This document shows positions 7,171 through 43,698 of a stretch of DNA of 64,000 nucleotides, piece after piece. A program made the translations under genes and the position numbers. Location: positions 248,001 to 312,000 of the forward strand of contig JAODTK010000178.1 of the NCBI GenBank assembly GCA_026419785.1, in the 5' to 3' direction. The notes under the pieces are model-generated. The model worked only from the letters and a program-made list of their open reading frames with translations, was not told where the DNA came from and ran no database searches. Each line of letters starts with the position of its first letter. The first letter of the stretch is position 1. The DNA comes from Sclerodactyla briareus. Taxonomy: Eukaryota; Echinodermata; Holothuroidea; Dendrochirotida; Sclerodactylidae.

Positions 7171-7278
7171 CTGTGGGAGGTGCCAGAAGGGTTGCATGTC
7201 GGACACCACTAGTGGCCAGCAGCTCTCGGATGATAACTTGTAAAGGGGTTGTTGTTTCCTAAAGTTGCACTGGTCATC
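7171..7278 (-). pseudogene. DUOX: DUOX exon 9 (DDQCNFR block), last recognisable
   Basis: The segment has 108 bases, acceptor TTTGCCTTCACAG and donor CACAG|GTGAGA. It reads DDQCNFR at the start, fitting the family's '(Y)RR(D)xxCxFR' continuation of exon 8, then 29 further open codons without clear similarity. It is one base out of frame with exon 8. Beyond it towards lower coordinates the sequence runs into the 51-bp minisatellite and no further peroxidase, EF-hand, FAD or NADPH exons are visible. Confidence 0.55.
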
Positions 7279-7379
7279 CTGTGAAGGCAAATTCAGTGTA
7301 GGATAGGCCAAAGCCAAAAGGCTTAGTGATTGTTTGGACTGACCTTGAAGTCAAGCGAGCATGTTCAAGATTACAATAG

Positions 7380-7560
7380 GAATCAGTGACCTCAGATGAC
7401 CTTTGACCAAACCAGAACAATGGGGTTCATGTACTATTGTGGGGACCCATGTACCAAGTATGAATTTGATACATCCAAGTGGGGTGAGTTATCGTGTAAC
7501 AAGGGCGGGGCGTCACACAAACACTGTCATGACTGCATAGATTCCCCTGACTTCGTAGGG
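7380..7560 (-). repeat. Single copy of the 312-bp AGGTCA repeat family
   Basis: GTGACCTCAGATGACC, TTTGACC, AATGGGGTTCATGTACT, CATGTACCAAGTATGA and GTGAGTTATCGTGT align in order with the reverse complement of the satellite monomers at 46.3-50.9 kb. This is a dispersed monomer. The half-sites read TGACCT on this strand. Confidence 0.75.
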
Positions 7561-8822
7561 AAAAAGAAAACCATCATGGGAAAAAACCAGGCACCAATCG
7601 TGCTCCAGCTCAACCCAGACAAATGCAAGTATTTAATTGAAAGGATCAAACATAGAATGCCATTTGACTATTTCACACAAAATAGCTGGCTCTCTAGTTC
7701 AAAAAGTAGGAGACCACTGCCTCTGGCTTCATGACTCCATGGTCACTAATCACAATTGCCAATTACCAAATTCAATCTTCAGACACATTTCGACAATTCA
7801 ATCCAAATTCAGGAAACCCATATGCACTAGCTCAGCTATGCATACCTACCCATTCAGCCCGAAATTTAATACTGCAACCACAATAAAAACCACCATGCCT
7901 CAACTGACAAATTCTGACAACCTTGTATAATGTTACTGACCATATCCCCAAGATTATGCATTTTTACTGTAGAAGCATATCGACCACTTGGTTCTGCCTT
8001 TGACTACAATTCTGTAATGGGGTCACTACACTGCCATGTAATCTTAGTATTCATATGAAGCTCCCCAGCTGGCATGAACACCATAGGTACCACTGGACAA
8101 TGATAAACACTGACCAAGTATCATGATGAACCTACTTAATCGTAGAAAAACACTTTTAACATAATAGCACCAAATGATTGTATGTATGTTATCCTATTGT
8201 AGGGTAGTGTACCCAAAACAGAAGGGCGAAATGGGTGAGCTCTAACATGGTCATTTTAAATGGAAAAATGGAAATAACACAAATGGAAATGAGTTCATTC
8301 CGGGGTTCCTTAATTCATCCAACGAGTGGGTCGTATTTGGCAGAGTGGCACCAATGGACTGCCATTGTATAGTAGAAAAACAGTCGGAAAATCATAGCCA
8401 AAAAATGAATTCGTCAAAGTGGACATTCACTATCGTTAAATTTTTCTCTACTAGATATCTACACAAGTCTGGAATTATCACTACAGATGGCAATGCAGTG
8501 ATAACCTACTAGAAAAATCTCTAAATTTCACTAACTGCCAATGTGGAACGTAAAGTGTCATAAGGGCATGAAACAAACAAAACCACTATTACCAGAGATG
8601 CTGGCTCTGGCTGGACCAACCCCCTGATTAATTACTATCTTACTGGGCATAGACGTTTTAAATTAATACATTGTCGTTATGCATCAATGATTCCACACGG
8701 TGAAGATCCTAGGGCTTATATTTTTCCAGTGATACTTTTGGTGAGCTGAAATCAATTGTCTTGTGGCCCAGATCTGGTCGTCTATGAACCACTATCCGGA
8801 AACTTCCTGGTCTAACACTCAC

Positions 8823-8908
8823 CGTCGGAAACAAGGGGGAACAAGGGTGTGCCCGAACCTCTGCTGCGGACTAGGAACTCGTGGGTGATCCCTGGGTGAA
8901 CATAACGT
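8823..8908 (-). pseudogene. DUOX: DUOX exon 8 (YVHPGI...RFGHTLVPP block)
   Basis: The segment contains YVHPGITHEF, then one frame change, then SPQQRFGHTLVPPCFRR ending at donor ACG|GTGAGT. This is the conserved 'xHPGIxxEFxxAAxRFGHTLVPPGxYRR' region of animal haem peroxidases and DUOX. Acceptor GGCTACAAG is weak. Homology is strong despite the frameshift. Confidence 0.8.
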
Positions 8909-9250
8909 CTTGTAGCCGCAAAATGAGAGAGTACCATATTTGCTTCAATCGCCTAAAAAATACCCCGAAAATTCACAACTGAGATGGTCAGGGTTTGCAG
9001 CTCTGCGGTTTAACATATATTTGTCCATGATCAATTCTCAGAGTGATGGACTCACTGATTTCTGCCTCATTTTGATCAGGTACAATAAGGCTGACTTCAA
9101 ATAATAGGCTGCTTTACTTTCCATTAGTCCATTCAGTAACATCCTGTTTTGAAATGCTCATGAAACGAGTACCAGAATGAGCCAAACAGCCTGAGGCGTC
9201 TTACTCGTTGTTCTCACACACAACTGGACAAGTACTCACATCATACTTAC

Positions 9251-9308
9251 GCCTCGGGTCATCTGGATCAATATGAGAAAAAATGGGCAGCCATTGATAG
9301 ACGGATAT
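9251..9308 (-). pseudogene. DUOX: DUOX exon 7 (VYQWLP block)
   Basis: A short 58-base exon with acceptor TTCTGCTCCCTGCAG and a strong donor GGC|GTAAGT. It is open, encoding ISVYQWLPIFSHIDPDDPRR. The family reads 'xxIxxYEWLPxFL' here, so the expected Glu is Gln. Entry phase 0 agrees with the end of exon 6. Exit phase does not agree with the next segment by one base. Confidence 0.75.
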
Positions 9309-9414
9309 CTGCAGGGAGCAGAAATCTATCAATGATTTGTTATAATCAACATTTTGACACATGGGAGACGTGAGGACAGCTGAGGAGACATCGCCTTGTC
9401 TAAAGGGCACTACG

Positions 9415-9510
9415 GAAAAAGCCTGCGGGCCTCATGGGAATCGAACTCACGATCAAGGTTGGAGATCTGCCAACTGAGTTATTCCGCCACCAACACTCGT
9501 AGTGGTTCCA
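9415..9510 (-). repeat. tRNA-headed SINE (promoter boxes)
   Basis: On the minus strand, TGGCGGAATAACTCAGTTGG resembles a pol III A box (the TAACTCAGTTGG core is like a tRNA D arm). About 30 bases later GAGTTCGATTCCC is a good B box. A clean cloverleaf with a 7-base anticodon loop does not form, so a SINE or tRNA pseudogene is likelier than a functional tRNA. It lies in a DUOX intron. Confidence 0.6.
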
Positions 9511-11148
9511 CATATCCAAAAGGAAATGAGTATCCGAGTAATATATCATTTCACGCAGATGGAAGGGTGCATCGTTGAACGATCAATAACATTGGGGACA
9601 GTGTGGAAATGTGTAAGGAAAAAAAAACAAAAAAAAAAAAAAACACTATGTTCACAGCCCTTGATGGAGGTGGCGACCCCAAGAAGGAGTTTGAAAAATA
9701 GGTTTTCAAGATAAGACCATGACTATTTCCCCTATTGAGAAGGATAACCACTCTGCTGATAGCACTGAAGCAGTGTAAGTCATCAAGAATCACAATGATA
9801 CTATACAGGATCACCATGAAATCAAGTGATCCCTAACATCACACCGGACATTTCACTCAAACGGCGCGGGCAATAGTCCTCGAGCATGAGATCACAGAGG
9901 CAAGATTGTCATTGCGAGGAAACTGCCAAAAGGTTGAAAAACCGTTCCATGCTGGTGGATTCGAAGGATTGTCTGGTGGTTCTGGTGAGTTATCCAATAA
10001 GTGGAATACATGATCAAGATCGGAAAGAGAGTCAAGCTTGTCCACCAGACATCGCCCCAATGATAGAGTTAATGAGTGATAATAGATGATGACAAGTAAC
10101 TATGTGCAAAGCTGAGGGTCTTGTGTATCGGTCCATCGCATTGCACAACTGACATGGTATTCAGCTAAGCTGCCATATTTTCGAGGGTCCTTTATGGAAC
10201 AAATTTAACCGTTGCGGAAGATAAGTTTGCCAGTCCAGGGAAGATAGAGGACTGGACATCATCAACCAACTAGTGAAGGTATCAAAAAATGGTCCGAAGT
10301 GGTGGCAAATTCTCTGACCCAAGTCTTGTTGTTTGTAAGGGCTCGTGTGTAATTATGCTGTTTGGGGTCCTGTGAGATGTATGTATGCTCTCTGGCTAGT
10401 CGTGTGTAATGGTCCATGATTCATGCTATCTGCCTAAAATTTGGCACAAGAACGTGAAGGCTACAGCCCCGATAAGCCTACCATTAGGCACAGTAAGCCA
10501 CTGGGAATGATACTGCATGCTCGGCATTTACAGTTTGGTTAGAGAAGTGTTAAAACATGCATCTTCTTGTGTAAGAGCAACAAGACTCGAACGAGACATG
10601 AATATATCTGCGGGAGCAGAGGAGTTAACTTGCATGGTCGATAAGAGTGAAGAAGAGAGGAGCATCCAATAGGGTCTTAGTTAGCCCAAGTTCAGCTTTC
10701 CCCACAATCATGAACAGACTAGGTAAGGTAGGGATGAGATGTGCCAGTTGGATTTTCTAGGTCTACAAGATACCAAGCAAAATTAGATACCACTAGATGC
10801 TGCAATCAGTAGCGCATCAGTGAGTGCTACAGCCTCAACCCGCCCAATTGGCAAGTGAATGCAATTTATCCGCCCCGCGACAATGCCTGCTGAAACTTTT
10901 TTGATGAACAACAGCGTTTTAAAAACGTCTCTACAGAACAGATGAACAAAAGTGGTTTTGGGTTGAAAACTTGTTGTAACAAGGTCTAAGGGGGGGGGGG
11001 GGGGGTTCTGACCCCTGGACCCACTTCACTTACTCATGCCACTGGCTGTGATAATAAATGGAGCATTCCAAGGGCAAGGGGAGTCCCTTCAACAAATGGC
11101 TAGCATTTCAAGAAGAAGAATATCCCATCAACACAAGATGATTCTCAC

Positions 11149-11351
11149 CGATTATGTGGCGATGAACCACTTTCTAGCTTCATTGTAGTATATTCATCAT
11201 ATAGTCCTCTATATCCCCCAACGTCTTTTCGGGGGTCTTTTGCCTGGAGCTTCTCTGCGATGATCTTGCACCAATAGTGTGCCAGCGGAACCAGACAATT
11301 CCAACCGTCACCGTAGAAATGGGTTCTTCATTGCCCACGAGGGTTGACCAG
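11149..11351 (-). pseudogene. DUOX: DUOX exon 6, frameshifted
   Basis: The segment runs from acceptor CACCCATAG to donor ATCG|GTGAGA. It carries NPRG and GNEEP in two frames, GIVWFRWH, KIIAEKLQAKDPRKD, and YYNEARKWFIAT just before the donor. These match the DUOX stretch 'GNPRGNExPFLxxFGIxWFRxHN...NEARKxVIAT'. At least three frame changes are needed. The best-preserved block is GIVWFRWH, which in active peroxidase-fold proteins lies on the haem-side helix. Confidence 0.78.
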
Positions 11352-11889
11352 CTATGGGTGATTAGATATGAACAAAAATTAGTCACAACAATAATGTTAT
11401 TTAAGATACTGTTTCAGGATTCCTGAAGCGGTTTCACATGTTTCATCAAAAGTTATATAGTGGTCACTTTGTCTGTTGGTCTGTGTGTCTGTCAAGTTGT
11501 CATTGTGCCACAGACTGATGTTTTGTCAAGTGAAAAAAGTTTATGAAGGTGTATGCATAAAGTGTCATTGCCTCGAATTTCAGGCCAAACCCGAATTGAT
11601 TTGCATACATTTGCATGTTAATGAAAAAAGACGATGAGGTGGGCCAAATCCACCCAAGTTGCCATTGAAATCCAACTAAACTGAAAAATAATGGCATTAA
11701 TTAGGCAAATTTGACAACTTAAGGCATACAATAACTAGCCAGAGGTGATCAGTGTGTGTCCACTAGATCACTAAACAGCATTATGTCTGATATTAGTTGA
11801 ACGTGGGGATCATTTACAAGATGCCCAACAAAAATACCGAGTTGAAACCGTCACATGTGCAAAGATTAACGTACGCATTTACAAGGATT

Positions 11890-12000
11890 TCAAACTTTTA
11901 CATCAGGTGACTTGAGGTTACCTTTTGACCTGACTAGAAAACAATTGGATTTGTCTATTCCCAAGTATGAACTTACATGCCAAAACTCTCTAAATCTCGG
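11890..12000 (-). repeat. Fragment of the 312-bp AGGTCA repeat abutting DUOX exon 5
   Basis: CAGGTGACTTGAGGTTACC, TTTGACCTGACTAGAAAACA and CCAAGTATGAACTTAC align with the same family (reverse complement). The fragment touches the decayed end of the DUOX exon 5 segment, so the open frame continuing past RFF is repeat, not peroxidase. Confidence 0.65.
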
Positions 12001-12061
12001 TAGAGGACTTGCATTTCCAGGGCAATTGAAGAAATGAAAAACGTATGACTCAATGAAAAAC

Positions 12062-12264
12062 CTACTTAGCATGAGATGCATGGGAGAACAGGGATTGGAG
12101 GGTTGGCATTGGGAGACCAGGTCATTCTCATCGGAACGGTGGCTCGCCTTGTGCTTCATGCTCCTGAGACGACCCCCCCTGAACTCCCTTGAGGGCGTCG
12201 GGCCCGCTTGGAGATACCGCTAGACAAGGCCACAGTCAAACCATGGCGTGTGATCTCGTTTAAG
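12062..12264 (-). pseudogene. DUOX: DUOX exon 5, heavily frameshifted
   Basis: Family blocks in order but in different frames: LNEIT (12264-12250), WFDCGLV, then YGISK after a stop, ADAL, LREFRGGRLRSMK, then DENDLVS and HLMLSRFF near 12075. This is the 'VNEITSWIDGSxVYGxSKAWADALRxFxxGxL' region of DUOX. At least four shifts are needed to follow it. No clear acceptor AG precedes LNEIT and the donor is uncertain. The low-coordinate flank runs straight into an AGGTCA-family repeat (11890-12000), so the exon end may have been disturbed by insertion. Confidence 0.75.
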
Positions 12265-12699
12265 CATGTCATGTGGAAACAAAAGCCATGGTACGTGGTG
12301 ATGTTGATGTCATGAGCATACCAATACAGATGGGATAATTGGTTGGACACATTGGAAGGCTGAGACGCAGAAACTTACCAAGTCATCCCAAATGGTAAAG
12401 TTCATTTGCACTTTTGCAGAATGCCAATTTCAGCTAAAATCAGCTTTGAGTATTGTGGTTGGCAACATTCGAGGGCATTGTTTCAGAACCCATGCTGGGT
12501 TTTTACATTCCTTTCCCCCCCCCCCCCCCCTACCCTTCACTCTCCCGAGGTTACTGAAGCTGCACCAACTGATAGATACAAGACTTACTGGTGGTCTCAA
12601 CCCACAAGCACTTCGGTGAGGGAGGACATTCTTGACCAACGCTTGCTTAATACTAACACTCCCCCTATCCAAGGATATTATCCATAGGAAGCAGTATAG

Positions 12700-12905
12700 T
12701 CTCTCCAAATCAGGCCGTTTTGCACTTTTGTGGAGCAGACCTTGCTGGACAGAGGATGGCAGACAGGAGGGGGCACTGAGGACAACTGCTGATGGTTTGC
12801 TTTTGCTCTTGTGCAATATGCACATGCACAAATTCAAAGGACTGTAAACTCTGGAACTGAAGTCCTATGAACTTCGGGTTGGGACGGACGCATTCAGTTT
12901 TTTCC
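12700..12905 (+). repeat. Dispersed repeat, copy 1 (partner at 40.85-41.0 kb)
   Basis: GTGCAATATGCACATGCACA, ATTCAAAGGACTGTAAACTC, AGTCCTATGAACTTCGGGTT and ACGCATTCAGTTTTTTCC have ordered counterparts at 40912-41010 in the same orientation. Family not recognised. Confidence 0.6.
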
Positions 12906-12984
12906 AGCTAATATATTAGCCTCATCATAATTTTTCCGCCCGTTGTCCTTAATTTCAGATGCTTGTTCCACTAGGCATCCATGG

Positions 12985-13090
12985 GAAAGTACAGGTCAGA
13001 AAGATGCAGACAGCAAGCCTCGTTTATGAAAACAGACTTGGGATTCAATCCCGGCCTCTTGGTGGGGAGGCCAATGCGCCACCAACCTAC
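12985..13090 (-). repeat. Possible tRNA-headed SINE
   Basis: On the minus strand GGTGGCGCATTGGCC resembles an A box, and GGGATTGAATCCC, about 33 bases on, resembles a B box with one substitution. Spacing fits a tRNA head. There is no tail or terminal poly(A) to confirm it. Confidence 0.4.
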
Positions 13091-13533
13091 CACTAGATGT
13101 AAAGTGGTCAGGTGTCAATACAAAGGGGTTGTGTCTAATGAAGAGATGATCATTATCTATTACAAAAGTGATCAAGTTCAAAGTAGTGCAAAGAGTTCTT
13201 CTGATGTTTCAACACTTAATTAGAAAGGACACCTGGATGATATACAAGCTCGCCAAACTAGCAGCATGGGCAAGTCTGTTGCTTTTTCCCTTACTTCTTA
13301 GCAAAGAACTTCTATCCATTGAAGACATGGTAAAGATGACTGATTAGTTCCAGCCTGGAGGAGCCGTGCAGAATAACAACACAATGATGGCACCCAAAAG
13401 ACTGTAGGGTGGTGCAACAGATGGCTAATAACATCCAGTTTCTCAAGTCCCCCTTCTATAACCTCTTACTGCTAGGATTTCAAACTACCCTCAAACCCAC
13501 AGTACAGATTATGGCCAACTAGAATACTTGTAC

Positions 13534-13736
13534 CTGTTCCCTGGGCAATGGGGGAGTACCAGTCTCAAAGCTGTATTGCTCCTCAGGAGGGGTATCTCCG
13601 TCTTGTTCAAGTCATTGTTACGACTTTGACCCACTTTCACACTTGGTGAATGCTCATAGTAGAGGGTGGGGTATATGAAGTTACTCTGGTGGGCAGCCGG
13701 GCCGCTGAGCATCCAAATCTCTTATACCAATGTGCC
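13534..13736 (-). pseudogene. DUOX: DUOX exon 4, two compensating frameshifts
   Basis: The exon has 203 bases, with pyrimidine-rich acceptor TTTTCTCTCCTCAACAG and donor ACAG|GTACAAGT. Phase fits exon 3 (Gly completed across the junction). It reads GHIGIRDLDAQRPGCPPE, matching the family's (V/L)xDAQRPGCPPEY block, then hits TAA. Reading resumes one frame on with EIPLLRS and returns to the first frame with YSFETGTPPLPREQ, which matches the 'SRYDxxTGxxPxxPREQ' region. Net length is a multiple of three, so one insertion and one deletion cancel. Total length equals a plausible intact exon. Confidence 0.82.
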
Positions 13737-15429
13737 CTGTTGAGGAGAGAAAATACTACTTAGGAGACGTCCTCGGAAATAAAAAATTGATAGAACCAGG
13801 GTAGGTAAGTGTTGAAATGATTTACCGAATTTGCTACCAGTAGTTCATGGGAGGTCAAAATTTTGCAGCCAAGCGCCCGCCTCCACAAAGAATGCCCCCT
13901 TCCCCACCCCGATATAACATGCAGAATGCATAGAATCTCTCTCGACCTTGAATACCAGATGCCTTGTGCCCTAGGAGTAACGTTTATGAGACCCACCCAA
14001 CTGCATCCATGCGGCAAAAGTCTTGCAGTCTGGTGATGAGCCCCAGTATAATGATGTGGCCTGGTCCTAGCTGGATACAGAGGATGAGGGTTGATGATTA
14101 AGGGCATGTCAAAAACCACATTAGCACTACTGGAATGACACCTCAATTTGAACCTTTGGGTATAACTATTGCCATCCCCATCCTGACCCCCCCCTTCCCC
14201 CCTGGTAGCATCAGGAACACCGCGTCCGTTCGCCTATGCATACATTAACCCTTGCGTGCCATACAATGGACAACTTTATGTTTCTACTAGTGACTCCTTC
14301 CTGCAGTACGCACAATCCTGGACTGCCTCTGACTACCCCCCCCCCCCGACTCCCCCCCCCCCCACCCACTTTCTATTCCATTTTTCGGTATTGCACACCA
14401 TTGATTGAGGCAATGTGAGATTCTGAATGACACTGTGTTGGCAAGGAATAGTGCCATGGTCAATTTCCCCATCTCTTTTATATTACCTTATTGCTCATAG
14501 TACCAGGTACGTAAGGCATAAATTTACATAATCTATTATCCTGACGGAGTGTCAAGTGTCATTATCCATTTCTATGATAATATCCACACCCACTACATCA
14601 TTGTATATTCGTTCAATGGGAAAAATCACAACCTATATAATGGATAGACATGCTGTAGTGTGATTGTACAATAAGAATGTCTACTAAAAATCCTACCAAT
14701 CAGAATATTTGTATTCATTCGGTCCAGTTGAGAGTCATCTTCAGTACAGTTTAAAAGAGAGAAAAGTCATAGCTATACAGTCTGCAGAAGAACATAACTT
14801 CTACCCAGCATGGGTTAACATTTATAACTGAAACATTGTACTGCTGAGAATCAATTATTCTTCATGAACAACCAGGTGACCTCTTGGACATTGGAGTCCA
14901 GTCAGGGTTACGGTTAGCCCAATGGAGAATCTGGCCAAGGAGATGACTTCATGGATACTTGCTGATCCTGCATTGAGGCTCATAGCTACTGGCACGATTT
15001 CCTGGCTGGTATGCTAACGCTTCACTAACTGTCCTAACCACTTGTGCTAGCCACATACTCTATATCTTGGGTTGCATGAAGCAGATGAGCATAAGACGGG
15101 CCGAGTGCGAGCCACAGTCCACTTCACGATTGATGCAGCGGAGTGTGGTCTCAGCACAAGTCCCTAGGCTAGGCTATGTCTAGGCTAGGCTGGGTCTGTT
15201 CAGACCCTGTTGGGTCGGCTCACTGATTCAGTCAATTCCCACAAAATCCTAACAGACTATGATTGGCAGTCCTATGCACAGCAACATAGATGCAGTGCAA
15301 TATCGACATGAGCATGGCTCAAAACCATTGCACTGAAGATCACAGGGCAAACTCCACTAGTCACTCAAGTGTGGACTCGGCTTTAGCCCTCACAAATTAT
15401 TTAGATTGAAAAGGTGGGTTTATACTTAC

Positions 15430-15600
15430 CAAAGAAGGTCATAAGAGCTGTTCTTCCTCTGAAGGAACCTCTACCCCAGTCTGTCCTCCCAACATGGTGG
15501 CCTAGATATCTGGATGGGTTCGGTCCGGGTCATAAATATCCGGATGGTCTGAAGACACCATCCTCGTAAGCGACAGGCAGCCGGCGGGTTAAGGGCAGAT
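15430..15600 (-). pseudogene. DUOX: DUOX exon 3, open except for one in-frame TGA
   Basis: The exon has 171 bases, acceptor CCTTGTATTGCAG and donor TTTG|GTAAGT. The first codon is completed by the G of exon 2 (Asp), then LPLTRRLPVAYEDGVFRPSG follows, which is typical of DUOX. A TGA stands at 15532-15530, after which the same frame continues with PGPNP and ends GSFRGRTALMTFFG, again a strong match. A single nonsense codon with the frame kept on both sides could be a null allele, early pseudogene decay or a base error. The upstream flank of this exon is intron, with the 35-bp minisatellite between exons 2 and 3. Confidence 0.85.
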
Positions 15601-15779
15601 CTGCAATACAAGGATACAATAAAGCCCAAGTTAGTTTTAAATTGTCAAGGCTGGCTACTGGCTAGGACTGTGACTGGACAAAGGCATCCCACTTACCACA
15701 AATCAATTTGTTGTCAAAAACATTTTCCACCCTGGCATGTTATTTGCAAATTCTTATCGTTAGACACCAGTCCCGAAAA

Positions 15780-16350
15780 AGATGACCTTGATAGGGTAGC
15801 AAATTGTCAGTACTGGCCTATCGAATAACCAATTGTTTAACTAGTTGGAGAGTAACTGTCAAGTAGACAATGCTGGCCATTAAACAACTCGCGGTCTGAA
15901 AACAGCAATTGGGAAACTGTCAAATGGACAATGCTGGCCCATTAAACAACTTGTCAAACGGACAATGCTGGCCCATCGAACAACTTACTGTCTGAAACAG
16001 CATTTGGGAAACTCAAATGGACAATGCTGGCCCATCGAACAACTTACTGTCTGAACCAGCTAGAGGGTAACTGTCAAATGGACAATGCTGGCCCAATAAA
16101 CAACTTGTCAATGGACAATGCTGGCCCATTAAACAACTTGATAAACGGACAATGCTGGCCCATCAAACAACTGTCTGAACCAGCTAGAGGGTAACTGTCA
16201 AATGGACAATGCTTGCCCAATAAACAACTTGTCAAACAGACAATGCTGGCCCATTAAACAACTTGTCAAACGGACAATGCTGGCCCATTGAACAAACAAC
16301 TGTCTGAACCAGCTGGAAAGTAACTGACAAATGGACAACTACTGTAACTG
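15780..16350 (+). repeat. 35-bp minisatellite with interspersed longer units, in DUOX intron 2
   Basis: The core unit is GGACAATGCTGGCCCATTAA, then ACAACTTGTCAAAC (about 34-35 bp). A second spacer type, ACTGTCTGAACCAGCTAGAG, then GGTAACTGTCAAAT, is inserted at intervals, giving a compound pattern. More than 12 cores are visible. It lies between DUOX exons 2 and 3. Confidence 0.88.
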
Positions 16351-16758
16351 TCTGAATGGTGGGGTGGCTTCCAGATCCTACCTTACTGGTAGGCCAGTTA
16401 TTATAAGTACTCACTATGATATTGACCAGCTCTCAATGCTTGCACTTCAAGTCGTTTTCACAAAAGAAATAAAGTAGCTTTTTTGTCAGTTTCAAGCTAG
16501 CATGTTAAAAAAGGTCACTGCTTTTTATATCCAGTAACCCAGCCAATCACACAGTATTACCAATAAACTGTACATATAGTATGGTAATTTAGTAAATTTG
16601 TGAATTGAATAACAGCCAAATAATTCCTTAGGCAGCATCAGATGAGACCTAATTTTACTGATAAAAACAGTGGGACCTACATAGACAGACACTTGTCATC
16701 ATAACTGCATATACAGCGGATTGCTCAACCAATCAAGAGCGAATGTCATGGTACCTAC

Positions 16759-16857
16759 CTGCACCACCCCAATCTGGGTGAGCCAAATTATTGTACCATC
16801 CATCATAGCCTTCCCATTCCTCTTCATCGTGTGGGTCAAATTTGATTTCTGAATATC
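16759..16857 (-). CDS. DUOX: DUOX exon 2: start of the peroxidase-homology domain
   Basis: The exon has 99 bases, open in one frame, with acceptor TTTCATGTTTCAG and donor GCAG|GTAGGT. It encodes 32 codons ending YDGWYNNLAHPDWGGA, the conserved N-terminal motif of DUOX peroxidase-homology domains (vertebrate forms read R-[FY]-DGW-[YF]-NNL). The acidic stretch before it (HDEEEWEG) is not conserved that I know of. Phase 1 on both sides fits exon 1 and exon 3 exactly. There are no lesions here. Confidence 0.88.
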
Positions 16858-17916: not shown

Positions 17917-17929
17917 CTGGTCAAAGTAA

Positions 17930-23429: not shown

Positions 23430-23493
23430 CTTGTGGAAAAGCCACAAGAAGACACACCACCAGCAAAACCGCTGGCTTGCCGCGCCGGTTCAT
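23430..23493 (-). CDS. DUOX: DUOX exon 1: start codon and signal peptide
   Basis: The ATG is at 23493-23491, followed by 21 codons plus one base, ending at a strong donor (CAAG|GTAAGT). The peptide begins MNRRGKPAV and continues into a hydrophobic core LLVVCLLVAF. This gives a basic n-region and an h-region, as expected for the secretory signal that precedes the extracellular peroxidase domain of DUOX. The leftover base G joins the first two bases of the exon at 16857 to make a glycine codon with no frame break. That phase match is the main reason for choosing this start. The intron is about 6.6 kb. A promoter was not recognised in the 500 bases upstream. Confidence 0.72.
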
Positions 23494-24794
23494 GTTCGCC
23501 GCCGTAGTCCATCCCCTGCAGACCCTCTAAACTGTACGTTTCTTTCTCGGTTCCCTTACAATCTATTACCTCTTCTTTTCCCCGTACTATCTTCCTGTAT
23601 CTCAGGTGAACTTGGTTTTCTCCGCCGATGCCGATTCTGCATGAAGGTCTCGCACACAAACCTTTCTTCAATCTTGCCTAAAACCTAGTCGCCATGTAGC
23701 GATCTAGGCTGAACACACACTAAAATTCTGCCCAGGCAGATCCTGATCAAACTTATCGAAGGGGCTCACTGTACTTCCCCTCAATCGAACTACACTGGTT
23801 ATGATAATCGGGCTTGCCCTTCGCTAAGTCACGCCTATCTGGTCGCGATTTAAGAAGTCATGCACGAGTGCTTCCGTTTTGGTGTTTGCCATCAGGCTTC
23901 GACCCGGATGACGAAGTGATTGTGTGTGCCCGGAGTCTCTCCGCAAACTAAAGTAGTTTATTCCTCGACGTATAGAATATAACATCACTCGTAGAGCCTG
24001 GGGTAACATGAACTGCTTATGTACTAAGCCGAGAATGAGAGTCCATTCTAGCACAGATTTTTGAGGCAGATAACTTCTGATTAATACACTGCGCGCACAG
24101 GACGTGGCAGTTTATCTCTGCAGCTATAACAGCTCGTGGCGATCAACGTTTACAATACATGCATTAGTGGATCACCAGAGGTACTCTGAAAACCAATTCC
24201 GGAGCTTTGCTAACTAGATTGCCTATACCTGTATCTGCGGAACAGCCCACCATGACAGTTAGTAAATTTCGCTTGATCCTCCGCCTTTATTGGAAACGGT
24301 GACCCATAATTTCACGCGATTCAAGTGTTGCCAATATTTTGGTGTATTCACAACACAGAAACTGCTTTATTCACGGCTTGCCTGACTTTGATAGGCCTCC
24401 TATTTACCGCCATATGCAGCTGAAAAGAGAGGGTTTATGCCTCGATCTTCAACATGATGCTATAAGGAAACCTCAATAACTAGGCCCCACTCTCCATGAT
24501 GTTACGGCAGCTAGAATGTCTTCGATTATTCACAAAAAGCCTTACATTCGCGCTCAACCAATTAATCCGCACAAAACCCTAATCGACACAACTGTATGCT
24601 GGGACTTAGGTACGACACCACCTGAAACGATACGTATATTCGCTCATGCCGACACTTGGGCCTTCATCAGTGTGCTGCCCAGGGAGCCCTTGTCCCGGGA
24701 TCGACTTTTTTTTATTAACGTCCTCCTCGACGAAAGAGTGCAGCGTTACTGTGCCTGCGAGATCATCGAAACTCTGAGATGAAACTCGGTATCA

Positions 24795-25235: not shown

Positions 25236-26984
25236 TGATACAGGAGAAGGTATCGCTCCCATACGTAGGTGGTGGGTGCCCCATATAGTGAGCAGATAAT
25301 CTCCATATTGTTTTTGTCGCTGATATAAATAATATTGCGCATCGCGCAGACTTTGGAAGAACATCATAAATGCAAATATCATGGAATCCTATTATCTAGA
25401 CAACTGTATGTCCGAGTTTGGTCATCAAATACTTGGTTATTGTATTGCTGGTCCTCATTTTATTAATAGAGGTCCTACATGTTCCCACTATTATTATTTA
25501 CAGAAAAGCCGTCCATCTGTGGGATCGGATGGACACCTGTTCGATTTGCAGTTCAAAGCTCTACTGACAAGCTATAGTTCAACCTTTCAGGTAAGGTAGC
25601 ACAGAGCCCGTGGCTTCCTTGTTCAGATCACAACCCTGCAGTACGTGTGACCGACCCAACTTGTTATGCACTAACCTATGCATCCTCCAACTGCATTTTG
25701 CTGGAGCATTCTCCAACTCGGGCTGCACATTCGCAAGGCAGTGAGGATGAGTGGTACTGGTATACTGTCTGTGATATACGTGAGGCAAGTGTACTGCCAC
25801 CGAAGGTTGAAGCTCCATTCTGATTTCGGTTAGTTAACTAAACTACAGTCATTACTAAAGGCAGTCATGGATCAATATTTGCAAGAAATTGTATCCGGTT
25901 TTCGCTCAAGCGGCTGCGTTAAGTTGTTATTTAGTGTACTGAGCAAATGAAGGGAGAATTCCCAATATGACCCAAATTCACTTGATTATTTCGATGATTG
26001 AACTGATAGTATTGGGAAAAGATCTCTTGTAGTTTTCTTTTACTTGTTTTATAAACTCTTCAGGGCACCTAACAAGAAGAGTATACCGGAAAAGTTGAAT
26101 TTTTCAAGAAGAGTGAGCTAAACTGTACAGAATCAGCCGCGCAAGCAGAGTAAGACACGCACCACATATACGTTCGAAAACATTAGATGGCTTAAAATTG
26201 GAAATGAAGGTACAAGAATTATTTCAATTTAGTTAATATTTGGCTTAATTCTCGAAAAAAAGAACTGTTCGATTGGGCAATATTTTTAACGGTCGTCTTC
26301 GGCAGAGAAATCCTAACCTCGTGGTATTCGAGTAAATATAGCATTTCAGTGTAGTGATTAGTGTGTTCCCTATTATGACTTCTGGACTCTGGCTTACAGG
26401 GGTCAACTAAAGTCACGTTATCGGTACCTGCGTACTTTAGATATTCATCCATGATTACCTTTAACCACTTTATTAGTTTAATCATTGAAGAATCGGGTTG
26501 AATAATTCTTTCGAAAAGTTACATAACTATAAATAGCATAACGAGTATAGTATTCTTTGAGTATATTGCAGTGTCATTCGTGACGCGCGACACAGAAGAC
26601 CCTGCCAAATACCGGCAGCCGATTAAAAATAGAGTGACTCAGATTTTACCTACGTCACTGCCGAAATCGAAAAATAAAAATCACCGGAGCGTAGAGACGA
26701 TGGCAATTGTTATAGCCGTGCATTCCTCGAAGCTACTGTGCATGACTATATAGGGCCATTTCCTGGGGCTTAGTTGGTAATTGTTATCAGTGGAAAAATG
26801 CGTCATGGTGACGGGTGAGCTCTTTCGTCATAGGGCTCATTCCCTCCATAAGAATTGTATTCTAAAATTGACCACATAACGAGGACTCCTTTCAAAACGT
26901 ATAAGGATAGAAAATGAGCAGAGGGAATTTGACTACATACATACATACAACAGAAGTAGAGGGTGACAGAAAACTCGGTCGTGA

Positions 26985-27635
26985 CATTTATCCGGAGAGT
27001 CGGGGGTTCTGTGGGGTCATGCACTTACCTTGTGACGTTCATCCGAGGAGTCGGGGGAGAGGTGTTTTATGGAGTCACGCTCGGTCGTGACGGTAATCTG
27101 GAGAGTCGGGGGATTCTACGGGGACACTCTTGGTTGTGACGTAGGTCCGAGGAGTGGGGCAGGGGGGTTATGGAGTCATGCTCGGTCGTGATGTTAATGC
27201 TCGGTCGTGACGTTAATCCGGAGAGTCGAAGGGTTTTGTGGGGACCTTCTCGATTGTGACATAGGTCCGAGGAGTTGGGGGGGGGGGGATTATGGAGTAA
27301 TGCTCGGTCGTGACGTTAATCTGGAGAGTCGGGGGTTCTGCGGGGACATCTCGGTTGTGGCGTAGGCTGAGGAGTGGGGCAGGGGGGTTGTGGAGTCATG
27401 CTCGGTCGTGATGTTAATCTGGAGGTTCGTGGGTTCTGTAGGGTTCACTCTCGCCTATGACGTTAATCGAGGAGTCGGAGAAGAGGGTTTTGAGGCGTAA
27501 TGCTCGGTCCGTTGAGTCATCCGGAGAGTCAAAGGGTTATGTGAGTCACGATCAGTCGTGACGTCAATACGGAGAGTCATGGGGTTTGAGGAGTCATACA
27601 CGGCCGTGTTGGTAATCTGGAGAGTCGGTTTTTTG
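26985..27635 (+). repeat. About 110-bp dimeric minisatellite with CRE-like TGACGT motifs
   Basis: The unit has two related halves of about 55 bp: GCTCGGTCGTGACGTTAATC, then (C/T)GGAGAGTCGGGGGTTCTG; and TCTCGGTTGTGACGTAGGTC, then CGAGGAGTGGGGCAGGGGGG. About six dimers occur, drifting at the 3' end. Most halves carry TGACGT; one (about 27558) is the full palindrome TGACGTCA. Confidence 0.85.
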
Positions 27636-34370: not shown

Positions 34371-34374
34371 TTTT

Positions 34375-35508: not shown

Positions 35509-35510
35509 CT

Positions 35511-35541
<31 letters not shown>

Positions 35542-35576
35542 TTTTTTATTTAATTTATTTATTTATTTATTTATTT
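35509..35576 (+). repeat. (TTTA)n microsatellite
   Basis: About 15 TTTA units with one interruption (TTTTTTATTTAA) in the middle. Confidence 0.95.
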
Positions 35577-35699
35577 GCTTTTATTAACGTCGATTCTATT
35601 GGTGTAATGCCTAATGTTTTTTGGCATGTGGATGTAGCGAGACAGGTCACATGTTTCCTCTTCCCTAACATTGCTCAGTCCTCGATCCATCTCGAGAAG

Positions 35700-36050
35700 T
35701 AATACGTTAGGGTGGCCGAATGGTAGAAGAGTGTTCGCCTGCAATGCCCGAGGTCCCTGGTTCAAACTCCGGTGTCGTCACAGACACCAACTTTCCCCCC
35801 GCTCCTGTCTCGTCAGAAAGTGGCTGCACACAGTGAGCTCCGTCTGTCGGAATGGGACATAATGGCTATCCCGGAGCAAGGGATTCTCACCCCTGCCTCG
35901 TTCCTCGCCGGTGTCCTTTCCACCACCCAAAACTGGGCTCTACAATTTCGACCAAGAATTCCTTAGTACAGCTAAGCAAAACCTCGGGTGGAAGCTAACA
36001 CGAGGCGCACTCAGTAAGTCCACTCTCGACGTTCGAGATTGAGACAGCTG
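35700..36050 (+). repeat. tRNA-derived SINE
   Basis: GGGTGGCCGAATGGTAGAAG (A box region), TTCGCCTGCAATGCCCGAGG (anticodon-like) and CCTGGTTCAAACTCC (B box) form a tRNA-like head at about 35708-35780. The body is tRNA-unrelated: CCGTCTGTCGGAATGGGACA, TCCTCGCCGGTGTCCTTTCC. The head directly follows the TTTA microsatellite and a poly-purine junction. SINE rather than tRNA because the anticodon stem does not fold cleanly and the body is long. The 3' limit is uncertain. Confidence 0.7.
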
Positions 36051-36059
36051 TACCTACAT

Positions 36060-39000
36060 GTAATAGAGGTTTCGAATTGGGGATCAATCTCGGCCTACCC
36101 GATCTCGATTACAAAGCTAGTTGTAGTAAAAGCTCCATTCATCCTTCATTTCCTGTCCTCCCTTCCAACCACGAAGCGAATACACATCACGTAAAAATAT
36201 ATTGTCTTGATGATAAACAAAAGGGGAAACCTATACCAAAAAAATCTGAGGTAACGATGGTTTTAGTCAAATTCGTAATTTCGTAGAACATATACATTTG
36301 TGCGGCCCGCCGGCTTTTTTTTCAATTCGCGACTGATCACCATTTTCTCCAAAACAGAAATGATTTGGGAATTTTTGAGTGCTTTACTTGACTGAAGTTC
36401 TTCAAGTTTGGATGAGGTATCGGGCGATTACATTCTTTACATATATTGCTGCTTATTTTCCTCGAATACTTCGTGCGAATGCCACTTTGGCTGTACTCAC
36501 CGTACGAAGGTATTATGCATTACTGTTGACTCACTGGTTCATACGACCTAATCTAGTATAGACCACAGCATATATAGACATAAGACATATATAGAAGAGT
36601 GTTTCATTTAGTACCGGTACTAAATTACTCCCTTTTAAAAAAAACTCAAAAGACCAGGCATGCAGTCCCGCGGAAAAAAGGACATATCAAAACTCCCCAC
36701 CCCAAAATGAGAGATTCATCTCGGATTCAAGTAGCCTTCTCGAGCTATCATTATTGACTAACGAGTGGCAGGTAAGGGTTATAATGGCATCTAATATAAT
36801 CATATAGTTTACTACTCACAAGCCATTTAGCTTTTGTTCTATTCAGATCTCAGTCTAGATTCGTTTGTTATTACCTGATAACGGATGTTTTCAAAAGGAT
36901 GTGCAAGTATGCGCTTAGTTGGCGTCAACCTCGCCGCAGATTTATGAGGCCACTAATGGTCTTTAAATTAAATGAGTCACTTTATTATAGCCTACCGACC
37001 TGCGATAATGGGTCCAATACACTCAAAAAAAAGACACCAAAAAAAATGTTGTACCACATGGGCAATTGTAATTTCATCCAGCCAGGGTAAAACTTTACTA
37101 AAAAAGGGGTAGATTATTACCGGACTGGGTTTAAACAATTGCACGGTGGTTATTCTTCCCAAACTTTTTTATAATGTACTAAGAATCGGAGAATGGAGAA
37201 TGATAGGTAATTGTTTAAAACTATTTTCTTTCCAGCAGGCATGACATGCAAGGAGGAAAGAGAGATCCACACTAACTCCCCAATAATGGAAGTTGGAATC
37301 AACTTCTCGAAAACTATAGAGCCACAATTGGGTGTAGGTCTATCATGGTCGTTGAGTACTCAAATTATAGCCTGATTAGCCAGTCCTAGTGAACTCCATT
37401 TACTAGTGAAACTTGTATACACAGAATAAGCACAGGTAGGCGTGTTTAGCACTATTTCTGTATTCTGAAAGTGTACCGGCGTGATTTGTGGTTGACGAAT
37501 AGTTCGGCAATTTGGTGGCGAGGGTTGGCACATTTTGATGCTGTATACCTCCGATAGGGACGCGGCCTTCTTGTTTGCCAGTACAATGCAAGGCATATCA
37601 CGGCAGTTCTAATTGTTTGTAGATACCCCGTATTCAGTTACCGCTATCTCGCCCCAAGGGAGTGGTTTCCGACGGACAGTATATGATCCGGCGTACAGAC
37701 GACGCGTGCTCGAAAAAGGAATTTTTGTGTAAAACTTCGGATTCCTCTTTGTTACGTCCGGGGGTTATATCGGCTTGAATGACTTTCAGCATAGCATAAA
37801 CCGGATATGAGGGGGTAAAGGCTGAGGCTGAGAGTTTCGGTTCCGCGAACGAACGGTTCTGTGTTGCACAGAAGGATAGTGGAATCCATGTGTCATGGTA
37901 GCTGTTTGTGGAGAGTCTTCTGACTTAACGAATTATGGGAGGAGATTGGAGTGAAACCCAAAGCAGGTAACGTTTTTCCTAATAAATCCCAATATTACTT
38001 ATTCGTATTGTAGTTATTGCTTAGAGCAAAATATTGAACACCAGTTGGCTTGCGTTGCGAAGGCATCTGGCATCAAATAGTAGTAAACTTGCCGGAAGGC
38101 ATCCCACGAAATAATTCAAAATAATCGCTAGTTTATTGTAACAATTCGGAACCTAAATAGTGGTATGGTATTGTGAAGTCAGCGTTCGGAACGGAGTGGG
38201 TGGGGGGGTGGGTAGGGGGGGGGGGGGGGGCTTTGTGGCCTATAGTCAACAGTGGAGCTGCGATACCCATAGGCTTGTGGGAAACCATTGTAGTAGCTAT
38301 TCTTCAGTTCGATGTGTGGCGTCTGGTGGTATGCTATACGGCTGAGCTCGACGGGTGGTTAATACAAACCCATCCCCGTTTTACTCACACACGAAACAGT
38401 GGTCGACAGTCGCACGTTGATCCGGAGTCTTCTCACTACGGACTCGGTACGCGCATTGGTCGGCGATATTAGGCCATGTATAACCACTCGCCTGTGACTT
38501 ACAGCCGCCAGCGCGGGCTATGCCTTAGAGGTATGGAAGTCTAATTAAATAGTTAAGCACCTGCCTGCTGAACTTCACCTTTGGAACCTCATACCTCCTG
38601 CGCCATGACCGAGTGTGCGCGCCCAAAATTGACTGGAAACCCAACGTCAATAGAGTCGTTAGGGATATATTTGCTATGCGTTGGCGGTTTTGGTTAAACG
38701 CTAGCGTGGTTGTGATAATACCACAGGACGATTGGAGAAGGGGGAAGTTAAATGGTGGTATACGTTGGACGGATTTAATATCCGGAGGGGGGGGGGGGTA
38801 GTCTTGGCCAGGGAGGGGGGGGGTGTTGGGGACGGGTGGGATATGGTTCTGAGCTCCCATGCTGAACAACGGTATCTGATGAACAGTCGCACTAGTTCTT
38901 ATAATTGAAGGCTGGCAGGTAGCCAAAAAACCAATGATCATGTTTTTTCTTTGGACTCTTTGTTTTTTTCTCTGCAACTCTTCTATGCAAACTGTGCTAT

Positions 39001-40840
39001 GGTTAGGCGAGGGCACGTACACCGACCAATCTGACACAAACGCCCATTATAGCCTTTGACGGAAAGATATCCACACACCGTGCTGAAAGGCCGGTTTTGC
39101 ACTCCGGTTGGGTTGATATCCTCAATACAATACCGGTGTTTTCGCGTCCATGTTGCTCTACCTAGAATTTATCTTTAAGCTTTGCTGCTCTTACAGTTAG
39201 AGTAACGAAAACTGAATGTTGAAGCATATAATGTTACACGTACAAATGCAATCGTTTGTCTTCCGTGTAGCTTGCACGCGGGCCTTTTCTTCCTCTTGAA
39301 ATTAGTAATTACTTTTTGCCGCCAGTGCCCCTCCAGTTATAAAAATAGCCCAAGATTCGAGCAGAGTGAATTTGAATAGTTGTTTGCAGATTTCGGGACT
39401 GAATTAGGGTTGGGCCTATCTAAGCCGCATCCCCAAAGTAAGCGAATTGGGTTCAGTTCGTCAATCCAAATGCTCCCCGGAAATTTAACGACTTTACTTG
39501 ATGACAAGTTAGGCTAGGGAATCCACCAACGTGCGAATACGGGAGTGAGAAATGGTGCCATAGAGCCTCGCGGTTAGCCTCGAGTGCTAGTGGCCAAAAA
39601 TCAACCAAATACAGTAATATGAAACGGACACTGTAGCATGAGAGGGCAAAAATAACATTGCGCGATTTGCGCCGGCATCACATCGCACACGTCCAATACA
39701 TAAGTGTAAGGTAATGATTGGACTTTCCACAGTCGTACAGTTTATATCTCTTATAAAAAAATTCTTCGAAAACTGCGAATCTCACGTCCACGCCGCATAT
39801 CCAGCCGCACCTAGCTAGCCTATAGAGTTACAGACCTACTAGATGAATTAACAGATTTGACATGCTTCTCCTCGGCATCACTCACTCTTTACGCATATTT
39901 TCTCAACGTTCCCCTCCTTCAAACTGTGTCGCACTCACTGACTGCGCGCACCTACGAACTGCGCTCCACCAACAAACTGTCATCTAAAAACCGCGCCTAA
40001 TCCGAAACAGCGTCAGTCCGACACCACTAATCTTACTGGCCGACGATATTACGTTCATTGAAGCTTGACGGGATGGTTCGTACGGATTAGGTGTTAATTT
40101 TCAATAGTTGACTTCAATGAACATCCTATCGCCCTGTGTGCGTGGCGCTCCAACAAACATCCCGGAAGAATAAGCCAAGTTCGTAGTCTAAGTGCGCATG
40201 CTCACCTCAGAACAGTTTGGAGGAATAGACGAGATTCGGTCAGATTTCCCCCATAGCGAATCGTTACGGCTCATTTTTAAAATGGTCACCACTATCGGAA
40301 ATGCATCCGTTCATCACGTGTTTTCGGATGTTATTGTTAATAAGTTATGGGGGGAAGGAATTGTAAAGTGTTGTGAGGCATGAGCGTAATTTTCGGCAGG
40401 GAAGTTCGAAAAGTTGTCTGCACACTGATACGTTCAAACGTCGAACTGCAGTCATTCCCTATGACTTGAAACGATTATCAATTTCATCTTATTAACTGTA
40501 ACGCCGAAATGGGTGCTGATATGTAACTGTGTTAAAACGCGTATCCTACAACTGGTCAGATTTTAGTCACTGAATATTGTGTTCGGTTGTTTGGAGGACA
40601 ACTGCGGGCTTGGTAACAACAGAGCCTATATCGTGGAATGTTCCTATGTTGCGTTATTGGCCTTCAAAGTTGGTCCATTATGCAGAGAAATTGGGAAGGA
40701 ATCCCAATGCGCAATGCACAGCATGACGTCACAATTGGACAACCCGGGAAGGGAACAGGAAGTTATGTCATGCATGTTTTCATTGTTTCCATTTGTTTTG
40801 CTTTCGAAGGTGAAAGTAATGTGGCGATTTCAATAGCGAA
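36060..40840. other. No gene recognised
   Basis: Only G runs (16 at 38215-38230, 12 at 38787-38798) and low-complexity pieces stand out. The 170-codon minus-strand open frame at 38525-39037 crosses the poly-C (PPLPGQDYPPPPP) and has no recognisable domain. Confidence 0.45.
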
Positions 40841-40849
40841 CAAAGAATG

Positions 40850-41010
40850 TTTGCAAGGGTTGTGCAGCTTTGCATCAGTTGTTATTGCATAATGGGATGC
40901 CTTTTCATCTTGCGCAATACACATGCACACACTCAAAGGACGTAAACTCCGTGACGGGAAGTTCGTATGACGTCGGGTTTGAACTGACACGTTCATTGTT
41001 TTTTCTTACA
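40850..41010 (+). repeat. Dispersed repeat, copy 2 (partner at 12.7-12.9 kb)
   Basis: GCGCAATACACATGCACACA, CTCAAAGGACGTAAACTCC, AAGTTCGTATGACGTCGGGT and ACACGTTCATTGTTTTTTC parallel 12812-12905 in order and orientation. Confidence 0.6.
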
Positions 41011-41519
41011 ATCCATCCGTTGTGGTTCTCTAACTGAGCGCATACGCGATGTATTTTTACGCCAGTCTTAACCAGCCCAAGTCCGGAGGTGGTTTTACGT
41101 TCTACCAGAGCTGTATAACAAGTCATTAATTCTCGTGCACAGGAACGCTCATTGATTACGGGTTGTTTTTCAAACGGGTCACTTCATACGAAACGAGGTT
41201 ATAATAGAGGCCTTTTCAAACCTCACAGAACCTACGATTGTATGATCTAAACATTGGAAAAAAATCCACTGCAAAAGATGTCACAATGACCATTACAATA
41301 ACGGTTTGAATGATATGAATATCAGGACATTTGACCTCGAACTGACCTGAATAAAAACTCCATACTAACTAACGGTAAACACAACATTTGAGATATCAGC
41401 GATGGCAGAATCAGTACATTTCACATATTATAGTCTTGTCCATTGATGTTCCTCTCCATTTCAAGCTCATGCAAGAGAGGGGGCGGCTCGCCAGCGGCTG
41501 GCTGCGGGACATGACCCCC

Positions 41520-41790
41520 TGCCCCCGTAGGGGCAGTTCCCCACCCCGTCGGGGAAAACATCGGAAGGGTACCGGGCGGAAGGGGAAGAGGAAAAAACGA
41601 GCGAAAAATGCGACAAGAAGAAAGGAAAAAGGAGGAAAAGAAAAATAAAAATTAAAAAACAGGAAAAATGAAGGTTTTGGTATAGGGTAGGGTGAGGTGC
41701 ACTGTGGACGAACGATACTGCTGAACTCTCATCGGGGAGATTGGTCCCGTAGGGGAAACTTTGCCCCTCGTCGGGGAAGGAGAAAATCCC
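41520..41790 (+). repeat. Short direct repeats flanking a purine-rich tract
   Basis: CCCCGTAGGGGCAGTTCCCC and ACCCCGTCGGGGAAAA near 41524-41562 resemble TCCCGTAGGGGAAACTTTG and CCCTCGTCGGGGAAGG near 41744-41781. Between them 41574-41690 is almost pure A/G on the plus strand. The spanning open frames have purine-tract composition (KGKRKKRAKNATRRKEKGG-like) and are not genes. Confidence 0.6.
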
Positions 41791-42669
41791 TGGCGGCCGG
41801 CCCCTCGTTGACGCGTTTTCCACTGCACTACACCACCATGGGGAGTTTTACGATCAACAAATCGGTTAGGGTTCCATGATGAGTCAAATTGGCTTCCGAA
41901 CCCGTAGAAATCAAATCAAATCTTGTGATCCGTGTCGATCAGAACACCTTGTTATCTCACTGGTCCTGAAGCCGGTTGAGATATTGTAGTCAGTTTGCCA
42001 TCACTGTGTGATTAGGAAAACTACCTATGGTGGAGTAGTACCCATGCGTGCTGTGTGGTCAGCAATATGTCGCACTCGAAAAGCTGTTCGTTAGTGTTGT
42101 GTTGTATGTGTGTCGGAGTTGTGTCAATTAGGTTTAGGTTTTTTGTCAGTTCCAGAAGATATCTTGAAAGTAGCTGCTAACATTGTAAAAACTTGCACAC
42201 AACAAATTATTAGGTACAAAAACGCCCATTTTTCCTCCCGATTAGGCCAAAAATTATCGAAATTGTGGATTTTTTTACCAGTTTTCATCTTTTTCAGGAT
42301 ATTTCGTGACTCCAATGGCGAATGATTTAAACACTTGTAAACTTTGCAACAAAGTAAGGAAAGCACACTTTCTTCCATGAAATCAGCTGAAAATCAACAA
42401 AATATGCGTTAAGGGGCGTTGGGGCCGGGGGCCGGACTTTTTGCGAATGTTTGATTTTTAAGAAGTTAATTTTTTTCAGCGTATAAGAGTGGAAGGAAAA
42501 AGTGAAGGAGCAAAACAGGTGTATCAAACTGTATCATCGGACGTAACAACCTTCTCATAAAAAAAAAGAAAACAAAAAAAAAATCGTTGATGATCTACGG
42601 GCGGGGGGATATCGATGGAAAAACGGATATATATGTGAGATTCGGGATTTGACGGTGAGTAGAAAGCCT

Positions 42670-42860
42670 ATAGGTGGTTAGAGATGGGACTCGGTGATCG
42701 AAAGGTGCGAATTCGACTCCCAATGGCACCGATCAACTTTTCCGGTGTGTCCCTCGTTTGGGGCGTGCAAGGTACGTGTTTCTTTGCCTCAACGAACCAG
42801 GAGATAATTGGGGACCTGTGAGCCTTTGCGTACAGCCTTCGGGCCCTTCAAAATGAGATT
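42670..42860 (+). repeat. tRNA-derived SINE, second type
   Basis: TATAGGTGGTTAGAGATGGG (A box region), ACTCGGTGATCGAAAGGTGC (anticodon arm) and GCGAATTCGACTCCC (B box with one extra base). The body contains TCCCTCGTTTGGGGC and CTTTGCGTACAGCCTTCGGG. It differs in head and body from the SINE at 35.7 kb. Confidence 0.6.
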
Positions 42861-43508
42861 GTCGGAAGAGCGTTCGGTAAGTGATCGGGGGGTAATATCT
42901 GAGAGCACTTTGAGAAGTCTACGAGTTAGAAAAGCCACATTCGCTTACCGATTACTGTTCCTGCCAATCATCAAACCCGTATAAAAAAAAATGGCTACAG
43001 GCAACTGACATCATAATATTAGATGTTAACCATAGTTAAGGAACGACACGTCATCCTCTTTCTTTCAACTGTTTCATGTAAGCTCAAGAATCTACTACAC
43101 GTGATCCCCAGTGTCACATAAGTAGGTGGAATTTGTATTTCTCATACCGAGTGGGATGAAAAAAACATCAATACACCTCAAATGCATTCGCGTCGTTTAC
43201 GATGACTGAATAGCCTAAATTTGGACCATTGCAATACCAATGACAAACGTTGCACCACAAAATATTGTTAAGTAACTAGGCATTTTGCTGCCCAACATTA
43301 AAAAAAACGTTAAAATGTCAAACATATAGTACAACATCAATTCCATACCCGCCTTGTGTTCAATGCTCAAAGCATTGGTAAACAGTTCAAATATGAGGAA
43401 AAACCGTTTCAAAAGAGAAGGCAAAATAATGTCCGAAAGTGTTCATACCTAGACTTCTCCATTTTGGAGAGTGCCTACTATTTTCCTCTAATCTTATCTT
43501 TTGTGCAG

Positions 43509-43698
43509 CTTTTATCTGGTGCGGTAGCAAGAACATACAATGGCGTTCGAGGGATTTAGGAACGAATGGGTCCATCCCGTAACAAGGGCAAAGACCGCCG
43601 TAAGCGCTGATATTATCGAGGCCGGCTTCATCTTCGCAGCCATCATTCTCTTCATCTCGTTTATGGCCATTCTCCCAGGGATACGAGGACTCAGGAAC
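43509..43698 (+). CDS. DUOXA: Dual oxidase maturation factor (DUOXA/NIP), first coding exon
   Basis: DUOXA proteins are ER/plasma-membrane partners that let DUOX leave the ER and make H2O2. ATG is at 43540. 53 codons follow to donor AGGAAC|GTAAGT (exon ends 43698, phase 0). Acceptor TCTTTTGTGCAG at 43508 indicates a 5'-UTR intron. The peptide has FRNEW, a tract TAVSADIIEAGFIFAAIILF, and ends FMAILPGIRGLRN. The hydrophobic span (residues about 28-46) is the first membrane segment, and ILPGIRG is the family signature after it. It is intact and clean. The remaining exons (further membrane segments and the extracellular loop with N-glycosylation sites) were not found in the next 20 kb and may lie beyond the window. 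It diverges from DUOX. Confidence 0.85.

Follow-up and report, generated by a model that had tools for sequence, protein, structure and literature searches.

The oxidase DUOX works with a maturation partner: DUOXA, a membrane protein of the endoplasmic reticulum, pairs with DUOX and enables its maturation and its arrival at the cell surface. There, calcium-bound EF-hands activate electron transfer from reduced nicotinamide adenine dinucleotide phosphate (NADPH) to oxygen, and hydrogen peroxide (H2O2) is released outside. We report here a DUOX and a DUOXA gene lying head-to-head in a stretch of 64,000 nucleotides of the holothuroid Sclerodactyla briareus (C176:248001-312000, C176 being contig JAODTK010000178.1). 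This whole stretch is referred to as the window, and coordinates given without a contig name are window positions.

The accessible part of PMC10282587 describes DUOX and DUOXA as "back-to-back" neighbours in the glass sponges A. vastus and O. minuta, in human and in the choanoflagellate Salpingoeca rosetta, and likewise in the demosponges A. queenslandica and E. muelleri, and it considers the linkage older than Metazoa. In the same part, the two genes are said not to be syntenic in two ctenophores; both genes are attributed to ctenophores with reference to PMC9524095, which conflicts with the table in the excerpt of that source, where Mnemiopsis is listed with one NOX5 and no Duox. Human DUOX2/DUOXA2 and DUOXA1/DUOX1 appear in a table of the ten bidirectional human gene pairs, less than 1000 bases apart, with the strongest conservation (PMC2871058, in excerpt), the fish Duox follows a single NIP (DuoxA) gene (PMC1940245, in excerpt) and the sea urchin Udx1 is the DUOX behind the oxidative burst at fertilisation (PMC6411640, in excerpt).

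Results

Analysis of the window and of the surrounding region (C176:188001-352000, 164 kb) confirmed that DUOX, on the minus strand, and DUOXA, on the plus strand, point in diverging directions from facing 5' ends. The contig measures 359,057 bases, in an assembly of 319,486,128 bases and 3171 contigs. The start codons, at 23493 (minus) and 43540 (plus), are 20,047 bases apart, in agreement with the initial annotation, which had proposed a divergent pair separated by about 20 kb. Both genes exceed the window, DUOX leaving it on its low-coordinate side and DUOXA continuing past its end, which is why the initial annotation was limited to the 5' half of DUOX and to exon 1 of DUOXA. The two genes, their orientation and their linkage are demonstrated, as are recognisable NADPH, flavin adenine dinucleotide (FAD), histidine and EF-hand motifs in DUOX. 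We consider it very probable that these neighbours were inherited from a very old ancestral pair.

Structure of the DUOX gene

The DUOX gene extends over about 53 kb, from its start codon to the C-terminus HHYENF at C176:218018. Human DUOX1 (chain A of 7d3e, used as query) is collinear with the locus over residues ~26 to 1551, both by tblastn and by spliced protein-to-genome alignment. The latter comprised 674 identities in 1586 aligned positions and scored 2181.5, against 583 on the other strand, 611.5 with the reversed protein and 607 in another region. It is made of 49 exon blocks, of which 24 score at least 50, the other 25 being weak, mostly untrusted and not to be counted as exons. The leader exon, which is absent from this alignment, was identified by reading the sequence: the start codon is followed by the signal-peptide-like MNRRGKPAVLLVVCLLVAFPQ and a GTAAGT donor, and the exon joins the YDGWYNNLAHPDWGG exon (16759-16857) in phase 1 and in frame. 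The leader, this join and the collinear alignment bear out the proposal that the 5' half of a DUOX gene begins at 23493 on the minus strand. The DUOX exons of the window are as follows (approximate coordinates marked "about"; E, expectation value).

23430-23493, minus: coding exon 1, with the start codon and a leader resembling a signal peptide, GTAAGT donor, phase 1 (sequence reading and phase-1 join, without a homology match of its own)
16759-16857, minus: exon 2, YSEIKFDPHDEEEWEGYDGWYNNLAHPDWGGA, start of the peroxidase-like domain (tblastn to DUOX1 residues 28-48, E 0.047; splice sites)
15430-15601, minus: exon 3, VAYEDGVFRPSG...FRGRTALMTFFG, one in-frame TGA (tblastn E 2.2e-4; three frames read)
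about 13502-13601, minus: probable exon, moderate support, two frame breaks (spliced alignment, score 66)
about 12067-12219, minus: probable exon (REFRGGRLRS...), moderate support, one frame break (spliced alignment, score 66)
about 11149-11351, minus: peroxidase-like exon (GNEEPFLR TVGIVWFRWHTIGA), four frame breaks, one stop (spliced alignment, score 152)
about 9249-9308, minus: likely exon (ISVYQWLPIF), weak support (spliced alignment, score 39)
about 8834-8908, minus: exon (HPGITHEFLVRS.RFGHTLVPP), one frame break (spliced alignment, score 54)
about 4214-4303, minus: exon (EEYLLGMASQ.VTEREDNIITEDL), one frame break (spliced alignment, score 73)
about 2940-3067, minus: exon (GPLDFSRRDLMAVNSQRGRDMGLPDYNRL) (tblastn E 2.9e-4; Pfam An_peroxidase 26.3 bits, cut-off 25; spliced alignment, score 100)

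The N-terminal domain resembling animal haem peroxidases was recovered by tblastn exons, by the spliced alignment and by profile PF03098, which matched C176:250931-251047 with 26.3 bits, above the cut-off of 25; this is the only one of the 24 PF03098 matches of the genome to fall on C176. Between the peroxidase and NOX parts, alignment to human DUOX1 identified EF-hands in the MYDLDRSGHLSREEF exon (C176:235383-235474) and in a frame-broken first EF-hand exon. The NOX core, with its ferric-reductase helices and its FAD and NADPH sites, was recognised in the spliced alignment by NLHKMI, LHTVGH, WLTHNL and FLHGS, which we take to hold the four haem-binding histidines, and by EYHPFTLTSAPHE, GGGIGVTPF and the C-terminal HHYENF. 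PF08030 (NAD_binding_6) matches exceeded their cut-off, and PF01794 (Ferric_reduct) reached only 24.8 bits on C176, below its cut-off of 28. When the exon carrying the NADPH site was compared with the PDB, DUOX1 came first (E 2.8e-16), followed by a ferric reductase (1.5e-4), NOX5 (0.053) and NOX2 (0.13).

Further features were noted along the gene. At 23512 on the minus strand, 19 bases upstream of the DUOX start codon, there is an out-of-frame ATG (MDYGGEHEP...) whose reading frame extends over that codon; if transcribed, it may form an upstream open reading frame. The intron after exon 2 contains a 34-base tandem repeat in 6.9 copies (16072-16295). A 62-amino-acid frame around exon 2 had no PDB match up to E 1, and this frame turned out to be non-coding.

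Structure of the DUOXA gene and genome-wide linkage

The DUOXA gene spans about 31 kb, of which 27 kb lie between exon 1 and the next trusted exon. A genome-wide search with PF10204 (DuoxA) yielded six scored candidates, five of which lie on the plus strand of C176 in the order of the profile and cover parts of its positions 4-245 of 279, three of them above the cut-off. All four candidates with E <0.1 fall on C176; the sixth, on C3105, is weak (E 0.335). The spliced alignment scored 305 against nulls of 194, 200 and 200, a weaker support than for DUOX, and the case for DUOXA therefore rests mainly on the profile matches, which are listed here with the other DUOXA features.

43540-43698, plus: coding exon 1 (MAFEGFRNEW...ILPGIRGLRN), GTAAGT donor, phase 0 (sequence, Pfam DuoxA, tblastn)
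C176:291585-291710, plus: DuoxA match within exon 1 (22.1 bits, E 0.0126)
C176:318954-319112, plus: DuoxA match (PF10204 profile)
about C176:319678-319767: exon (KIDYNERFHFW) (spliced alignment)
C176:320190-320282, plus: DuoxA match (PF10204 profile)
C176:320281-320382, plus: DuoxA match (PF10204 profile, E 0.755)
C176:321410-321601, plus: DuoxA match (PF10204 profile)
about C176:322548-322730: last exon, with the stop codon

Exon 1 aligns with DuoxA profile positions 4-45 and narrowly misses the curated cut-off of 23.3 bits. By tblastn it is 36% identical to residues 15-47 of human DUOXA1, with an E of only 1.0, and when this exon by itself was compared with the PDB, no DUOXA appeared at E <=10, the only matches being sodium/glucose cotransporters (E 2.7-3.1). 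The first coding exon proposed at 43540 in the initial annotation is nevertheless upheld by this profile match just under the cut-off and by the collinear exons downstream. Two sets of blocks from the DUOXA spliced alignment were rejected: the first block (C176:291453-291502) lies before the start codon, and the small blocks at C176:297110-305559 are weak and untrusted.

For NAD_binding_6, both matches of the genome at E <=0.01 are on C176. Together with the PDB result for the NADPH exon and the concentration of DuoxA matches on this contig, this supports the identification of the two genes as DUOX and DUOXA. Two single loci placed at random would have a chance of about 3e-5 of lying head-to-head on the right side and no more than 20,047 bases apart (20,047 x 0.5 / 319.5 million).

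Related sequences were seen elsewhere in the assembly. A Ferric_reduct match at C3001:26819-27091 holds two stops and may mark another NOX-like or reductase gene. Other exons of animal haem peroxidases (loci L003-L021, L023, L025 and L026) include many clustered at C717:35344-286386 and a group at C2321:17193-20774, the latter a nearly intron-free run that contains TGA stops and changes of frame. Three homeobox matches were obtained as well, the two with a readable frame not being diagnostic of a phylum.

The interval between the two genes

The stretch between the start codons (23494-43539) measures 20,046 bases. No third gene was seen there when 20 of its 97 stop-free open reading frames of at least 60 amino acids were scanned, none exceeding a Pfam cut-off, a scan that a gene of short exons could escape. 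The scan took in 18 of the 20 longest frames, the two omitted being rich in repeats, together with the two that follow in length; three of the scanned frames gave weak matches (E 0.027 to 0.066), all below the cut-offs. The interval has no CpG-island-like peak that would mark a shared promoter, and no Rfam family reached its gathering score in the window. Tandem repeats are present, with nested units of ~220 and 98 bases at 26974-27438 and others elsewhere in the interval.

Because 20 kb separate the start codons, where a bidirectional promoter would call for transcription starts within about 1 kb, one core promoter shared by DUOX and DUOXA is unlikely, unless 5' non-coding exons close the gap. 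The distance argues in the same direction as the initial annotation, which had judged it too long for such a promoter. More likely alternatives are that each gene has its own promoter in a common regulatory domain, or that the gene order was simply inherited.

Discussion

Several observations weigh against two intact, single-copy genes forming an inherited pair. Frame breaks occur in both genes, in DUOX 38 in 1449 aligned codons and in DUOXA 7 in 277, and five DUOX alignment blocks contain a stop. A short DUOXA exon 2 (about residues 48-72) was not found by tblastn of pieces, splice-site scan, pattern search or spliced alignment, and 27 kb separate exon 1 from the next trusted DUOXA exon. Of two Ferric_reduct matches, the one on C3001 (29 bits) is above the cut-off and the one on C176 below it. 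A further copy might also have escaped the profile searches, which score the best candidates only.

The frame breaks are most simply read as indel noise in the assembly, because HSP70 genes, used as controls, break as often: four blocks on C2424 had 14, 13, 3 and 17 breaks in 264, 268, 320 and 308 aligned codons, in total 47 in 1160, with the caveat that three of the four carry 44 of the 47 and that these HSP70 copies may themselves be dead. Weak alignment blocks may also have contributed false breaks in DUOX. A locus of two decaying pseudogenes, which would be compatible with ancestral linkage, could account for the in-frame TGA of DUOX exon 3, the several small indels of the EF-hand exon, the frame change in a DUOXA exon and the stops in the DUOX blocks. 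It appears very improbable, given that the controls, good if not perfect, break more often than DUOX and that many exons and the key motifs are retained across 53 kb. As for the assembly itself, the abundance of frame breaks in the HSP70 copies (loci L043-L046 of C2424) points to small-indel errors, and no COX1 match was found in it at E <=0.001, so that the mitochondrial contig may be missing. Such base-level errors leave some room for a misjoin having placed both genes on one contig. This would, however, require the accidental re-creation of an order known in other animals, and there is no run of N in the 164 kb region, which makes a misjoin extremely unlikely.

It is also conceivable that the exon at 43540-43698 belongs to an unrelated membrane protein and that DUOXA starts elsewhere. 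Its DuoxA score below the cut-off, its tblastn E value, the PDB search without DUOXA and the 27 kb that follow it would fit this possibility. We nevertheless find it quite improbable: the exon is the fourth-best of the six DuoxA candidates genome-wide, on the correct contig and strand, it begins with ATG, ends at GTAAGT, retains ILPGIRG and accounts for an N-terminal stretch of the profile absent from the other matches. Were it wrong, the divergent arrangement on a single contig would persist, with about 47 kb between the two genes. Finally, chance, or a rearrangement that arose later and independently in this lineage, might have brought the two genes together, as could be argued from a spacing far above the less than 1000 bases of the human pairs (PMC2871058, in excerpt) and from the ctenophores in which the genes are not syntenic (PMC10282587, accessible part). 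This is highly unlikely in view of the chance of about 3e-5 for so close a head-to-head placement and of the same order in sponges, a choanoflagellate and human (PMC10282587, accessible part).

Inheritance from an old pair is therefore the reading that we retain. A very old ancestral DUOX/DUOXA pair would have been passed down and its head-to-head order kept in this genome, where adjacency would aid the co-expression of the two genes. We infer the ancestral origin of the linkage, the working state of both genes and the benefit of adjacency for co-expression. A stronger version, in which the pair has been divergent since before animals although its gap grew to 20 kb, is possible but doubtful. 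If it were true, the pair would be held together by something other than a shared core promoter, perhaps by distant enhancers common to both genes or by a single chromatin domain.

Comparison with known systems

The initial annotation saw in this pair a sign of old linkage. This reading pointed the right way, old linkage being the explanation that fits best; since the accessible part of PMC10282587 already places the linkage before animals, the pair does not newly connect vertebrates with invertebrate deuterostomes. For the same reason the linkage was to be expected here: the arrangement is inherited and already known in kind, and the locus is an additional example. One more animal thus keeps an H2O2-making oxidase and its maturation partner as divergent neighbours.

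The vertebrate DUOX1/DUOXA1 and DUOX2/DUOXA2 pairs consist of the same two genes in the same divergent orientation. They differ in number, one pair being found here against two in vertebrates, and in spacing, the human genes being less than 1000 bases apart ("135" and "<0" in what is presumably the distance column of the excerpt of PMC2871058), against 20 kb between start codons here. The sponge and choanoflagellate genes are neighbours as well, and "back-to-back" is taken to mean divergent since human is among the examples given in the accessible part of PMC10282587; the two A. vastus genes bear the numbers g225 and g227 there, and a gene model g226 may lie between them. With the sea urchin Udx1 the likeness is at the level of the DUOX family. 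With a gap this wide compared with the human pairs, the S. briareus locus is a useful natural setting in which to ask if co-expression depends on a core promoter common to both genes.

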